NCBI GenBank assembly: GCA_017512805.1
Contig: JAFWES010000080.1
Span: 1 to 50,628, forward strand
Direction: 5' to 3'
DNA length: 50,628 nucleotides
DNA from: Clostridia bacterium
Lineage (GTDB): Bacteria; Bacillota; Clostridia; Christensenellales; Aristaeellaceae
In this document: one piece after another, positions 39,512 through 44,215 of the stretch
How the letters are laid out: each line of letters begins with the position of its first letter
Numbering within the stretch: the first letter of the stretch is position 1
The notes under the pieces: generated by a model
What the model saw: the letters and a program-made list of their open reading frames with translations, nothing else
The model's database searches: none
What the model was told of the DNA's origin: nothing
Made by a program: the position numbers and the translations under genes

Positions 39512-40894
39512 CTACAGCCCCAGCAAAGCCTTGGCGATGCCGAAGTACACCAGCAGGCTCAGGGCGTCCACAATAGTGGTGATGAAAGGACTGGCCATGA
39601 CGGCCGGATCAAAGCCCAGCCTTTTGGCGATCATGGGGAGGGTACAGCCCACCACCTTGGCGCACAGGATGGTAATGGCCATGGTCAGGCAGACGACGGC
39701 GGCGACCAGCACCGTGATGTCCGGGTTGCCCAGCAGCAGCCGGTCCACCAGCATGATCTTGCCAAAGCAAAGCACCGCCAGGGCCAGACCGCACATAACG
39801 GCCGTCCGGACTTCCTTCCATATGACCTTGGGCAGCTCCTTGAATTCCAGCTCTCCCAGGCTCAGGGCACGGATCACGGTTACCGAGCTCTGGGATCCGG
39901 AATTGCCCCCCGTGTCCATCAGCATGGGGATGAAGGCGGTCAGCGCTACCTGGGCCGCCAGGGCCTCCTCAAAGCTGGTAATGATCAGGCCGGTAAAGGT
40001 GGCGGAGACCATCAGCAGAGCCAGCCAGGGGATCCGATGCTTAAACAGGTCCCAGGGGGTGGACCGGAGATAGGTCTTATCGCTGGGCGTCATACCGGCC
40101 ATGATCTCCATGTCCTCGGTGGTCTCATCTTCCAGAACGTCCATGGCGTCGTCGAAGGTGACAATCCCCACCATGCGGTTGTCGTTATCCAGCACCGGGA
40201 CGGCCAGCAGATTGTATTTGCTCATCGTCCGGGCGACTTCTTCCTGGTCGGTATGGGTGTTGACGGTCACCACCCCGGAGCCGCTTTCCATGACGCTGTC
40301 AATGGTCTGCATATCCGAGGGGGCCAGCAGCAGGCTTTTGACGCTGACCGTTCCGATCAGCAGGCGGCTCTTCAGCACGTAGCAGGTATAGATGGTTTCC
40401 TTGTCCACCCCGGTCTGCCGGATGCGGAGGATGGCATCCCCCACGGTCATGTTCGGGGTCAGGGAAACGTATTCCGTCGTCATCACCGATCCGGCGGAAT
40501 TTTCCGGATACTGGAGAATCTCGTTGATCTCCTTGCGCATCTGGGGATCACTCTGGGCCAGAATCCGCTGAACCACGTTGGCAGGCATTTCCTCCACAAT
40601 GTCCACCGCGTCATCCACGTACAGCTCCGCCATGACCTGCTTCAGCTCGCTGTCGCTGATCCCGCGGATCAGGGATTCCTGTTCTTCGGGCTCCATTTCC
40701 ACAAAGCTTTCCGCCGCCAGCTCCTTGGGCAGCAGGCGGAAAAGCAGGGGCATCTGCTCCGGCTGGCATCCGGCAAACACGGCGGCAATGTCCGGCGGAT
40801 TCATGGTCACCAGAATATCCCGGACGGTCGAATACTTTTTGTCTTTCAGCAGAACCTGAAGGGTGTTTTCAATCCGAACGTTGTGCTCCGGCAT
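39512..40894 (-). CDS. mgtE: MgtE-family magnesium transporter
   Basis: 460 residues from ATG 40894, supported by GAGGAGGAAAAACGC. Domains in order: N-terminal superhelical domain (about 1-125, with NPPDIAAVFAG and LVDD-type motif LYVDDAVDIVEEMP), a tandem CBS pair (about 128-255: AGSVMTTEYVSLTPNMTVGD, YNLLAVPVLDNDNRMVGIVT), a plug helix, and five membrane helices. The pore signatures IPMLMDTGGNSGSQSS and FDPAVMASPFITTIVDALSL are intact. Channel gating is by Mg2+ at the CBS and N domains (known for the family). It is the only gene in its transcription unit, behind a leader of about 330 nt with an upstream ORF and attenuator-like hairpin. Confidence 0.96.
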   Translation of the reverse strand: MPEHNVRIENTLQVLLKDKKYSTVRDILVTMNPPDIAAVFAGCQPEQMPLLFRLLPKELAAESFVEMEPEEQESLIRGISDSELKQVMAELYVDDAVDIVEEMPANVVQRILAQSDPQMRKEINEILQYPENSAGSVMTTEYVSLTPNMTVGDAILRIRQTGVDKETIYTCYVLKSRLLIGTVSVKSLLLAPSDMQTIDSVMESGSGVVTVNTHTDQEEVARTMSKYNLLAVPVLDNDNRMVGIVTFDDAMDVLEDETTEDMEIMAGMTPSDKTYLRSTPWDLFKHRIPWLALLMVSATFTGLIITSFEEALAAQVALTAFIPMLMDTGGNSGSQSSVTVIRALSLGELEFKELPKVIWKEVRTAVMCGLALAVLCFGKIMLVDRLLLGNPDITVLVAAVVCLTMAITILCAKVVGCTLPMIAKRLGFDPAVMASPFITTIVDALSLLVYFGIAKALLGL

Positions 40895-40956
40895 GCGTTT
40901 TTCCTCCTCTTCTTTCTTAATGATGAGGAATCCCTCCTGTATCAAGGGAACCCCGT

Positions 40957-40975
40957 CGCCGGAAACCTTCCGGCG
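40957..40975 (-). other. Second hairpin in the mgtE leader
   Basis: CGCCGGAA and TTCCGGCG, an 8-bp perfect stem with a 3-nt loop, about 63 nt before the mgtE start. No T-run follows, so it is not a terminator. Confidence 0.7.
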
Positions 40976-41010
40976 GAATGGGGGGAGCGGGCATACGGGT
41001 CAGGCATATG

Positions 41011-41072
41011 AAAAGGCGCGCGAAAACACACCCGCAAAAACAGGTGCTATACGGTTTTCGGACAGACGCGCC
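41011..41072 (-). terminator. Attenuator-like hairpin in the mgtE leader
   Basis: Minus strand, three stacked segments: GGCGCG (41072-41067) with CGCGCC (41020-41015); CGAAAAC (41060-41054) with GTTTTCG (41027-41021); CACCTG (41046-41041) with CGGGTG (41034-41029, one G-U pair). That is 19 pairs around a 6-nt loop, followed directly by TTTTC. It begins 10 nt after the stop of the upstream ORF. Confidence 0.7.
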
Positions 41073-41082
41073 ACAGGAACGG

Positions 41083-41166
41083 TTACAGAGGGAACGGGAA
41101 CGTCAGGACGTTCGGGTTCCGCCGCCTTCGCCCAACCGGCACGCCGCTGCTACTCCCAGCGTCCAT
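41083..41166 (-). CDS. Upstream ORF (27-residue putative leader peptide) of mgtE
   Basis: ATG 41166 has AAGGAGG with 7-nt spacing, as good as any gene in the window, and lies about 57 nt after the predicted transcript start. The peptide starts MDAGSSSGVPVG, then four consecutive Arg (codons CGA AGG CGG CGG), then NPNVLTFPFPL and TAA. A GAACGTC/GACGTTC inverted repeat (41098-41113) lies within its last third. An overlapping ATG at 41171 is only 2 nt from the GGAGG core and is less likely. Role inferred: ribosome progress on this ORF sets the fold of the downstream attenuator-like hairpin. It has no other recognisable protein features. Confidence 0.55.
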   Translation of the reverse strand: MDAGSSSGVPVGRRRRNPNVLTFPFPL

Positions 41167-41229
41167 GACATTTCCTCCTTTTTCCGTTTTTCACCCGGGA
41201 CGGGCGTTCGCCACCCCGGAACCGGCATT

Positions 41230-41259
41230 ATTATAATGGATGGGACAGGGAAAAGTCAA
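41230..41259 (-). promoter_or_regulatory. Promoter of the mgtE leader transcript
   Basis: Minus strand TTGACT (41259-41254), 18-nt spacer, TATAAT (41235-41230). Confidence 0.85.
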
Positions 41260-41425: not shown

Positions 41426-41680
41426 ATGACCAAGGCTGAAATCATTGCCGCCTATGCCATGCACGAAGGCGACACGGGCTCCCCTGAGGTGCAGATCGCG
41501 CTGCTGACCGATCGCATCAACCATCTGAACGAGCATCTGAAGGCGAACAAGAACGACCATCACTCCAACCGCGGGCTGCTGCTGATGGTCGGCCGCCGCC
41601 GCAATATGCTGGAGTACCTGAAGAGGACGGACATCGAGCGGTACCGTTCGCTGATCGCCAGGCTGAACCTGCGGAAGTAA
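41426..41680 (+). CDS. rpsO: 30S ribosomal protein S15
   Basis: 84 residues, slightly shorter than the usual 88-89 at the N-terminus. ATG 41426 after ACGGAGGAA. S15 motifs: [42 protein letters not shown], and [21 protein letters not shown]. It binds 16S rRNA helices 20-22 early in small-subunit assembly. rpsO-pnp is the conserved order. Confidence 0.97.
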
Positions 41681-41756
41681 TTCCCGCAGGCAGGTTCGGG
41701 TATTCCGGAAGGGTTTCCGCGTTTCCGCGCCCACAGGGGCGGAGAGCGCGCTGCGT

Positions 41757-41792
41757 CAAAGCCGCCGGAGGAGGATCCTTCCGGCGGCTTTG
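41757..41792 (+). terminator. Strong hairpin after rpsO
   Basis: CAAAGCCGCCGGA and TCCGGCGGCTTTG form a perfect 13-bp stem with a 10-nt loop. Only a weak T-rich tail follows, so it may terminate partially or mark an RNA processing site between rpsO and pnp. Confidence 0.65.
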
Positions 41793-41883
41793 GCTGCGTC
41801 AGGCGGAAGAAAGCGCCTTTTCGGGATATCCTGACGAAGCTAAGCCGGACAGGCAGGACGATCGCGTATACGCGTTCGCTGAT

Positions 41884-41925
41884 GGGGGCGTTTCCCTCCC
41901 GGAGCGGGGAGGGCTTTTCGCCCCC
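41884..41925 (+). other. Two-step hairpin in the pnp leader
   Basis: GGGGGCG/CGCCCCC outside and CCCTCCC/GGGAGGG inside. In E. coli a leader duplex cut by RNase III underlies pnp autoregulation; a comparable role here is inference. Confidence 0.6.
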
Positions 41926-42061
41926 GGCCGGAGAGATCGTGTGTTATCCCCTGAAAATCGCGCTGCAGCAGGGGTTTTCATCAGATAGCATACGAGGTTT
42001 CGGCCAAAGAGGAAGAAAGAACGAAGAGAGAAGAAGAGAGAGAAAAAAGGAGAAAAGCGAA

Positions 42062-44215
42062 ATGGAATCCAAATGCTATTCCATGGATCTGGCCGGCAAA
42101 AAGCTGACGCTGGAATTCGGCCGGTACTGTGAACAGGCCAACGGCTCCGTTTGGGTGCATCTGGGCGATACGGTGGTCATGGTCAACGCGACGATGGCTC
42201 CCACCCCCCGGGAAGGCGTGGACTTCTTCCCCCTGGCGGTGGATGTGGAAGAGAAACAGTATTCCGTGGGGAAGATTCCCGGCGGATTCATCAAGCGGGA
42301 AGGCCGTCCCACCGACAAGGCGACCCTGACCTGCCGGCTGATTGACCGGCCCCTGCGGCCCCTGTTCAATAAGGGCATGCGCAATGACGTGCAGGTGGTG
42401 GTCACCGTGCTGAGCGTGGAGCAGGACGTGCCCCCGGAAATTCCGGCGATGATCGGTTCCTCCATTGCCCTGGCCGTGTCCGACATTCCGTGGAACGGGC
42501 CGACCGGCGCGGTGCTGGTGGGCCGGGTCAACGGGAAGTATGTGATCTGCCCCGATGAGGCCCAGCGGGCGGAAAGCGATCTGAGCCTGTATGTGGCCGG
42601 GACGGAAGAAGCGATCATGATGGTGGAAGCCGGCGCCAAAGAGCTGAGCGAAGACACCATGCTGGACGCCATCCTCTTCGGCCATGAGGAGATCAAGAAG
42701 CTGGTAGCCTTCCAGAAGCAGATCGTGGCCGAAATCGGCAAGGAAAAGAAGGTCGTGCCGCTGATCACCACCGGCGACGATATCAAGGCCGCGGTGCGGG
42801 AATTCGCGCTGGAAAAGTGCAAGTGGGTCTATGAAACCTTCGAGCGCAAGGAACGGCAGACCCGGGAGGCCCAGGTGAAGGAAGAGACCCTGGCGGCCCT
42901 GAGCCAGCAGTTCCCGGAGCGGGAGAGCGAAATTGAAGACGCGCTGTACTACCTGAACAAGGAAGTCATGCGGAGCAAGATCCTGAACGAGGGGATCCGT
43001 CCCGACGGGCGGAAGGTCACCGAGATCCGGCCCATCTGGTGCGACGTGGGCGTGCTGCCCCGGACCCATGGCTCCGCCATCTTCACCCGGGGCCAGACGC
43101 AGGCCCTGACGGTGACCACGCTGGGAACCGTGTCCGAAGGCCAGACGCTGGACGGGCTGAGCACCAGCGAGACCTTCAAGCGGTACATCCATCAGTATAA
43201 CATGCCCCCGTACGCCACCGGCGAGGCGGGCCGCATGAAGAGCCCCGGCCGGCGGGAAATCGGCCACGGGGCCCTGGCGGAGCGGGCCCTGCTGCCCGTC
43301 ATTCCCTCCGAGGAAGAGTTTCCCTATGCCATGCGGCTGGTGAGCGAAATCCTCAGCTCCAACGGATCCTCCTCCATGGCTTCCGTATGCGGCAGCACCC
43401 TGAGCCTGATGGACGCGGGCGTGCCGATTTCCGCGCCGGTGGCCGGCGTGGCCATGGGCCTGATCACCGATCAGGAAAGCGGAAAGCTGGCTGTCCTGAC
43501 CGATATCCAGGGCCTGGAGGACTTCTTGGGCGATATGGACTTCAAGGTGGCGGGCAGCATGAACGGGATCACCGCCCTGCAGATGGATATCAAGATTGCG
43601 GGGATCAACCGGGCTATCCTGCAGCAGGCCCTGAATCAGGCGCTGCAGGGACGGCTGCATATCCTCAAGATCATGCTGGAGACGCTGGGTCAGCCCAGGG
43701 ATGAGCTGAGCCCCTACGCCCCGAAGATCATCAACTTTACCATCAATCCCGACAAGATCCGCGAAGTCATCGGGCCCGGCGGCAAGATGATCAACAAGAT
43801 TATCGCCGAAACCGGCGTCAAGATCGATATCGAGGACGACGGCCGGGTCTTCATCTCCACCCCGGACAGCGATGCCGCGGAGAAGGCGAAGAAGATTATC
43901 GAGGGCATTGCCAAGGATATCGAGGTGGGGGACGTGTTCACCGGGAAGGTGGTCCGGATTATGAATTTCGGCGCCTTCGTGGAGCTGGCCCCCGGCAAGG
44001 ACGGGATGATCCACATTTCCAAGCTGGATAATCACCGGGTGGAAAAGGTGGAGGATGTGGTCAATATCGGGGACGAACTGGAAGTCAAGGTCAACGAGAT
44101 CGATGCCCAGGGCAGGATTAACCTGATCCGGAATGACATCGTGTACGAGAATACCGCGCCGGCTCGTCGGGAGGGAAGCGGCAGCCGCCGTCCGCCCCGC
44201 CGGGACAGCCACTGA
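42062..44215 (+). CDS. pnp: Polynucleotide phosphorylase
   Basis: 717 residues from ATG 42062, with AAAGGAG upstream; the frame is open further 5' but without a site. 3'-5' phosphorolytic exoribonuclease. Domains: RNase PH-like domain 1 ([22 protein letters not shown]), helical linker (about 225-310), RNase PH-like domain 2 with the catalytic [18 protein letters not shown], a KH domain ([20 protein letters not shown]), and S1 ([21 protein letters not shown]). The C-terminus is a short basic tail. Acts in mRNA decay. Confidence 0.97.

Follow-up and report, generated by a model that had tools for sequence, protein, structure and literature searches.

How is the magnesium transporter gene mgtE regulated at a locus where no magnesium riboswitch can be recognised? 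The question is raised by a contig of 50,628 nucleotides from a member of the Clostridia (JAFWES010000080.1; the whole analysed stretch is called the window below), in which a short open reading frame (uORF) lies between a promoter and mgtE. Our analysis suggests an answer: the uORF element, conserved in many gut bacteria along with co-evolving RNA pairings, looks like a switch that takes the place occupied in other bacteria by a magnesium riboswitch. The reading we favour, at a probability of roughly 0.55, is a leader-ORF switch resembling that of the enterobacterial leader peptide MgtL and acting mainly on translation, in which translation of the early uORF codons would set the fold of the RNA and Mg2+ would be the quantity sensed.

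All elements of the leader lie on the reverse strand, and its layout largely agrees with the preliminary description. The promoter TTGACT-18-TATAAT is present at 41259-41230 (11/12 matches). The uORF, preceded by the Shine-Dalgarno (SD) sequence GGAGG, was confirmed by direct reading as 27 codons at 41166-41083 (MDAGSSSGVPVGRRRRNPNVLTFPFPL, stop TAA), with the four consecutive Arg codons in place as CGA AGG CGG CGG. The downstream gene (39512-40894, ATG at 40894) is indeed mgtE: its 460-residue product matches the magnesium transporter family TIGR00400 at 1.7e-130, and PF01769 and PF03448 were matched as well. The SD of mgtE, AGGAGG, is read directly at 40903-40908, and a TTCCTC complementary to it lies at 40925-40930 in the predicted fold. 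Directly past the mgtE stop there is a strong terminator-like site of 10 pairs (TCTTTTTT, 39502-39477), and two genes on the forward strand (41426-44215), which from their translations we take to be rpsO-like (S15) and pnp-like, diverge from the mgtE promoter region.

The absence of an M-box, claimed from the letters alone, withstood a covariance-model search of Rfam, RF00380 included: the window leader matched neither the M-box nor any other Rfam family, at gathering thresholds or at E up to 5, the permissive search covering the window locus and seven relatives. The window's genome is likewise without an M-box at the filters of our survey. Rfam also includes an mgtA-leader family. Since the leader shows no relation to this enterobacterial model, we do not count it in the MgtL family; it may be a new form of leader-ORF regulation outside that family. 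A full-text literature search returned no description of an mgtE leader ORF in Clostridia among the matches listed, as judged by their titles and the openings of their abstracts.

The related loci comprised 30 from the same genus and 80 others, of which 109 have upstream DNA (L098 has none). A uORF of the same kind was recognised in 102 of the 109 loci, including 30/30 from the genus; because the choice of uORF scored peptide features, conservation figures derived from this set are partly selected. The 109 loci contain seven exact duplicate leaders, from genomes present in two collections, and 95 of the 102 uORF-bearing leaders are distinct. Seven loci (L054, L068, L075, L080, L086, L088 and L110) lack the uORF. 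According to the submitters' titles, the loci come from Bacillota, with five from Spirochaetota and one from a Coriobacteriaceae bin, and most are metagenome bins. We used 74 representatives sharing less than 85% identity; in 61 of them a promoter-like site with at least 10/12 matches lies ahead of the uORF.

Conservation is concentrated in codons 1-14 (41125-41166 in the window), which among the representatives read MDAGSxSGxxxGRS. In this N-terminal part, pairwise differences fall on codon positions 1, 2 and 3 in proportions of 25, 30 and 45%, whereas the C-terminal part is aperiodic (34, 32 and 34%) and codon entropy approaches its maximum in the C-terminal half. The distance from the start codon to the conserved CGA varies, yet it is a multiple of three in 40/40 leaders outside the genus. 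The conserved Arg, residue 13 in the window, is encoded by CGA in 66/66 cases, whereas CGA makes up 2.4% of the Arg codons in the representatives' own mgtE genes. An acidic residue occupies position 2-3 in 73/74 representatives, again with uORFs chosen partly by peptide features; the window peptide starts with MDAG and has no Pro there. Taken together, the comparison supports the view that the uORF is coding, and an alignment of leaders from relatives bears out the preliminary description in part: the start and the frame of the uORF are conserved, the Arg run is not (RRRR in 2/74 representatives). Ser codons at residues 5 and 14 are mostly AGT (58/63 and 44/46), which makes up 4.4% of Ser codons in mgtE. 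The peptide belongs to no known family in NCBIfam (four peptides searched) or Pfam (three peptides). We also considered an overlapping ORF (MSWTLGVAAA...) starting 5 nt upstream, which is common in the genus, and rejected it, as its ATG is found in only 3/40 leaders outside.

Two long-range pairings, first picked out by eye and then put to the test, stand out in the leaders. Pairing A joins the uORF SD region through the start codon (41165-41179) to GACGTTCC within the 3' part of the uORF (41090-41106). Pairing B joins the early codons (41159-41129) to segment D, a conserved stretch downstream of the uORF stop (41006-40978). In a partner-swap test, which set each sequence's own partner against the partners of other species in 72 of the 74 representatives (L056 and L081 dropped), own partners scored -13.1 versus -10.3 for swapped ones in A and -28.8 versus -23.5 in B. 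Both differences correspond to a z of -11.3, and 0/20,000 permutations were as low for either pairing; the permutations ignore relatedness, but the crossed controls, subject to the same relatedness, were null (uORF SD with D, z +0.7; early codons with the 3' part, z -0.1). A covariation count over 34 hand-chosen leaders outside the genus, aligned by MAFFT without structure, gave 42 two-sided compensatory cells for A and B versus 22.2 in shuffles (0/500 as high), and two-sided change in 19 of 32 pairs versus 13.4 (3/500 as high). The cells of A and B were paired in 78.5% of cases versus 38-52% with one arm slid, A being the least well paired helix in this count (73%). RNAalifold, run on 40 leaders, recovered the inner part of B but assigned the outer arm of D to the uORF SD, not to the early codons; the outer arm may thus pair there instead, although the swap of the SD with D was null. 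Pairings A and B cross, and probably only one of them can form in full at a time.

In the window itself, the duplex of A is weak (-12.1 kcal/mol, z -1.4) and that of B gives -36.3 kcal/mol (z -2.4, with 1.1% of shuffles as strong); when 30-nt duplexes with the uORF codons are scored along the 4-kb transcript strand, four other sites come out stronger. A recurrent TF or AF near the end of the uORF looks like a by-product of GACGTTCC having to pair with the uORF SD.

Segment D also appears to be coupled to the SD of mgtE. The partner-swap z of this pair is -4.25, while the duplex is weak against shuffles of D (mean z -0.94, 36% below -1.5, n=59). One run of the shuffle and swap test covered the 59 of 74 leaders of usable length, another run 72. 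The mgtE SD is predicted to be unpaired at 0.207, compared with 0.293 when the upstream sequence is shuffled (p 1.7e-4, n=50). Blocking D in silico raised the accessibility of the mgtE SD no more than a random block did. What comparison among relatives shows is A, B and the coupling of D to the mgtE SD. A further candidate, the A3:D pairing, is not claimed: its z of -4.7 in the survey set fell to -0.8 when the core set was examined.

That the uORF element does the job of an M-box is suggested above all by an apparent exchange between the two. Two of the seven uORF-lacking loci, L075 (955-1112) and L088 (2162-2321), carry an M-box. All seven fall within the MgtE clade of the uORF-bearing loci, and the MgtE tree places these two as sisters (starred support). 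No M-box was found in 69 uORF-bearing loci, the remaining 33 of the 102 being genus members or duplicates. The hypergeometric probability of 2/7 versus 0/69, calculated by hand, is about 0.007. Among the indirect evidence that the uORF element takes over the role of the M-box, this exchange, seen in sequence comparison, ranks highest.

How far does the device extend beyond the core family? We surveyed 140 mgtE leaders, 53 from the order (of 64 places) and 87 from the phylum (of 133), selecting uORFs solely by their SD, their position and a length of 16-45 codons and leaving the peptide sequence unused. An M-box was detected in 32 leaders, leaving 108 without; these flags were assigned from coordinates under stricter filters, so some M-boxes may be missed. 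Among the 108, 48 show Asp or Glu at residue 2 of an SD-led uORF. Counted by uORF, such a residue is found in 49 of the 76 SD-led uORFs without a detected M-box versus 26 of 439 background ORFs, with controls of 32/306 for SD-led genes and 5/63 for uORFs of other genes, two of these five actually being mgtE uORFs. Divergent members start, for example, with MDADPGS, MESDPGS, MDPLPQS or MDDGARCQAKEGVPRS, Pro being part of the starts MDADPG and MESDPG. A swap test on 28 of the 48 uORFs (repeated N-termini and short segments dropped), a few of which are possibly not true leader ORFs, included 22 outside the core family. These 22 divergent acidic uORFs retain A (z -6.9) and B (z -3.5), controls being null, and show a z of only -1.5 for the swap of D with the mgtE SD. 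Hence the architecture outlives the peptide sequence. An acidic-start, SD-led uORF is also present in 9/32 M-box leaders, such as L210 (METDPGRS...), L214 (MDDGTGLHIQ...) and L133 (MDAGGSSCG...); beyond the core family, a leader may therefore hold both devices at once.

A model of the conserved core itself, R1, built from 70 of the 74 representatives (L056, L081, L092 and L094 dropped), matched 10 of 398 phylum genomes at E <= 0.001; matches lie upstream of mgtE in the window and six others, and the remaining three (E 4e-4 to 1e-3) do not. Over many genomes R1 scores about 13 candidates per genome, so that its absence is weak evidence. In the survey, matches at E <1e-4 number 6/53 in the order and 1/87 in the phylum, with four more at 0.001-0.01 in the order set.

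These elements can be assembled into a mechanism with a known precedent. In the published account of MgtL (PMC11282234), mgtA is repressed when Mg2+ suffices for the leader to be translated to its end, while at low Mg2+ ribosomes drop off at the acidic-proline motif EPDP and the mRNA refolds. In the window, ribosome progress through the first 14 or so uORF codons would set the RNA fold. Early codons free of ribosomes would pair with D in pairing B; D being captured, the mgtE SD would be open, so that B would be the state in which mgtE is on. Ribosomes reading through would disrupt B and release D, which, when uncaptured, would mask the mgtE SD, directly or via neighbouring hairpins, and in a minority of species would feed a terminator, so that mgtE would be off. 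Pairing A would gate initiation on the uORF and may support either state. Owing to the acidic peptide start and the fixed rare CGA at residue 13, early elongation may be easily disrupted when Mg2+ is low, as in MgtL, and low Mg2+ would therefore empty the early codons and turn mgtE on. Which way the switch runs, that it responds to Mg2+ and that ribosome drop-off does the sensing are our inferences. Drop-off may be weak in this particular leader, since its peptide offers a single acidic residue close to the start and nothing like EPDP. In its general outline, a leader peptide before mgtE occupying the place of the M-box by analogy with MgtL, the preliminary description has held up: the uORF recurs in 102/109 loci, its codons have a downstream pairing partner and an M-box is missing.

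A different sensor and output had been proposed at the same time, namely that ribosome pausing in an Arg- and Pro-rich uORF decides whether transcription terminates at the hairpin of 41072-41011. Such a hairpin exists as described, with three segments (41072-41015), a short U run (TTTT, 41014-41011) and considerable stability (-27.9 kcal/mol, z -3.9 against dinucleotide shuffles), except that it has 21 pairs, not 19. Relatives speak against its being the switch. When 73 nt containing it were searched against 37 genomes, everything found apart from the window copy was short and had E >0.01, and in the near relative L003 the uORF stop directly joins segment D with no insert. Other members of the genus (L002, L004-L007, L022 and L028) have unrelated inserts between the uORF stop and mgtE, several of them hairpin-like by eye; the window hairpin is the one among these inserts that was folded individually. 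As segment D lies beyond it, the hairpin falls within the loop closed by pairing B. The supposed sensor fares no better, given the scarcity of RRRR and the near-random codons around the NPNVLTFPFPL tail, and with no conserved codon run we also rejected an amino-acid attenuator of the trp type. The antiterminator suggested between the uORF and the first hairpin arm is at chance level (z +0.6, 72% of shuffles as strong); since the partner favoured by comparison lies beyond the hairpin, at 41006-40978, and pairs better, this part of the proposal is unsupported. Terminator-like sites do occur in 11/74 leaders, versus 1.6% of mononucleotide shuffles, so some species may add a terminator, and the window hairpin may still terminate some transcripts. 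With so few sites and no match to the hairpin at E <0.01 in the relatives searched, the element does not qualify as an intrinsic-terminator attenuator, and we give the Arg/Pro pausing model hardly any credence.

The chief rival to drop-off is a stall at the CGA codon: with 12-13 residues in the tunnel, the nascent chain MDAGSxSGxxxGRS would arrest the ribosome in response to Mg2+ or another small molecule; the stalled ribosome would cover the early codons and so block B. It shares the RNA architecture of A and B with the reading we prefer, and it would explain why conservation stops abruptly at codon 14 and why Arg is always CGA, which base pairing alone would not need. Divergent mgtE uORFs, however, retain the acidic start and both pairings but not this peptide, which rules out a specific arrest sequence as the sensor in general, and we consider the stall unlikely while still worth keeping in mind. 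Either way, control would rest on ribosome occupancy of codons 2-14. A folded RNA that binds Mg2+ through A and B, with the uORF as by-product or modulator, would fit the strongly co-evolving pairings, the compact leader and the fact that other mgtE genes are under Mg2+ riboswitches (of 159 genomes sampled from the phylum, 58 contain an M-box). We judge it improbable, as the N-terminal part evolves as protein, with third-position changes, a kept frame and an acidic residue 2, the window leader has no Rfam match, and in divergent uORFs the acidity of the peptide outlasts the nucleotide sequence. Finally, the SD-led uORF lying close to mgtE in 102/109 loci might be an ordinary small ORF or one that boosts mgtE translation by translational coupling, with no sensing at all; this very improbable reading leaves the crossed co-evolving pairings, the fixed CGA codon and the exchange with the M-box unexplained.

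Returning to the drop-off reading, a broader version of it can be put forward, tentatively and at somewhat less than even odds: abortive early translation of acidic-start leader ORFs may be a widespread Mg2+ sensor of mgtE genes in Bacillota and Spirochaetota that can stand in for the M-box and be replaced by it, sharing the two-pairing architecture while the peptide diverges past its acidic start, in which case MgtL would be one instance of a much broader class. If true, many of the 108/140 leaders without a detected M-box would gauge Mg2+ by the ribosome itself, and leader-ORF sensing would have arisen or spread far past mgtA of enterobacteria. With its fixed CGA codon, this compact element would offer a concrete handle on the interplay of decoding and Mg2+.

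Several known systems resemble the window leader in part. Like the M-box (ykoK leader, RF00380), it is found on mgtE genes, and two loci of the same clade have an M-box in the place of the uORF; unlike the M-box, it has no match to that family in the window or its genome, and a coding ORF is central to it. The mgtE motif of Thioalkalivibrio (SRC-65-1) is likewise a candidate non-M-box cis-regulatory RNA on mgtE (PMC11109978). It is described as a riboswitch candidate exclusive to Thioalkalivibrio, with the SD of the gene in its P4 stem (PMC11109978), a description that sets it apart from the window leader. Unlike the window leader, it has no uORF mentioned in that description, as far as the latter goes (PMC11109978). 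In the pe20 M-box of Mycobacterium tuberculosis, a Mg2+ leader, a conserved uORF and control at the level of translation come together (PMC12810186), features that the window leader would share if Mg2+ is its signal. In that account, however, the M-box controls the uORF (PMC12810186), whereas here there is no M-box and the uORF is the proposed sensor. The closest parallel is MgtL, from which the window leader differs in several respects: the gene encodes an MgtE transporter and not the P-type ATPase MgtA, the hosts belong to other phyla, the peptide and RNA sequences are unrelated, the window peptide is without EPDP, and the apparent output is mostly masking of the mgtE SD and not Rho termination. 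What the two have in common, going by the account of MgtL in PMC11282234, is a short leader ORF before a gene for a Mg2+ importer, to some extent an acidic start directly after the initial Met (a single residue in the window peptide), and alternative RNA pairings, predicted in our case, that depend on whether the ribosome finishes the early codons.
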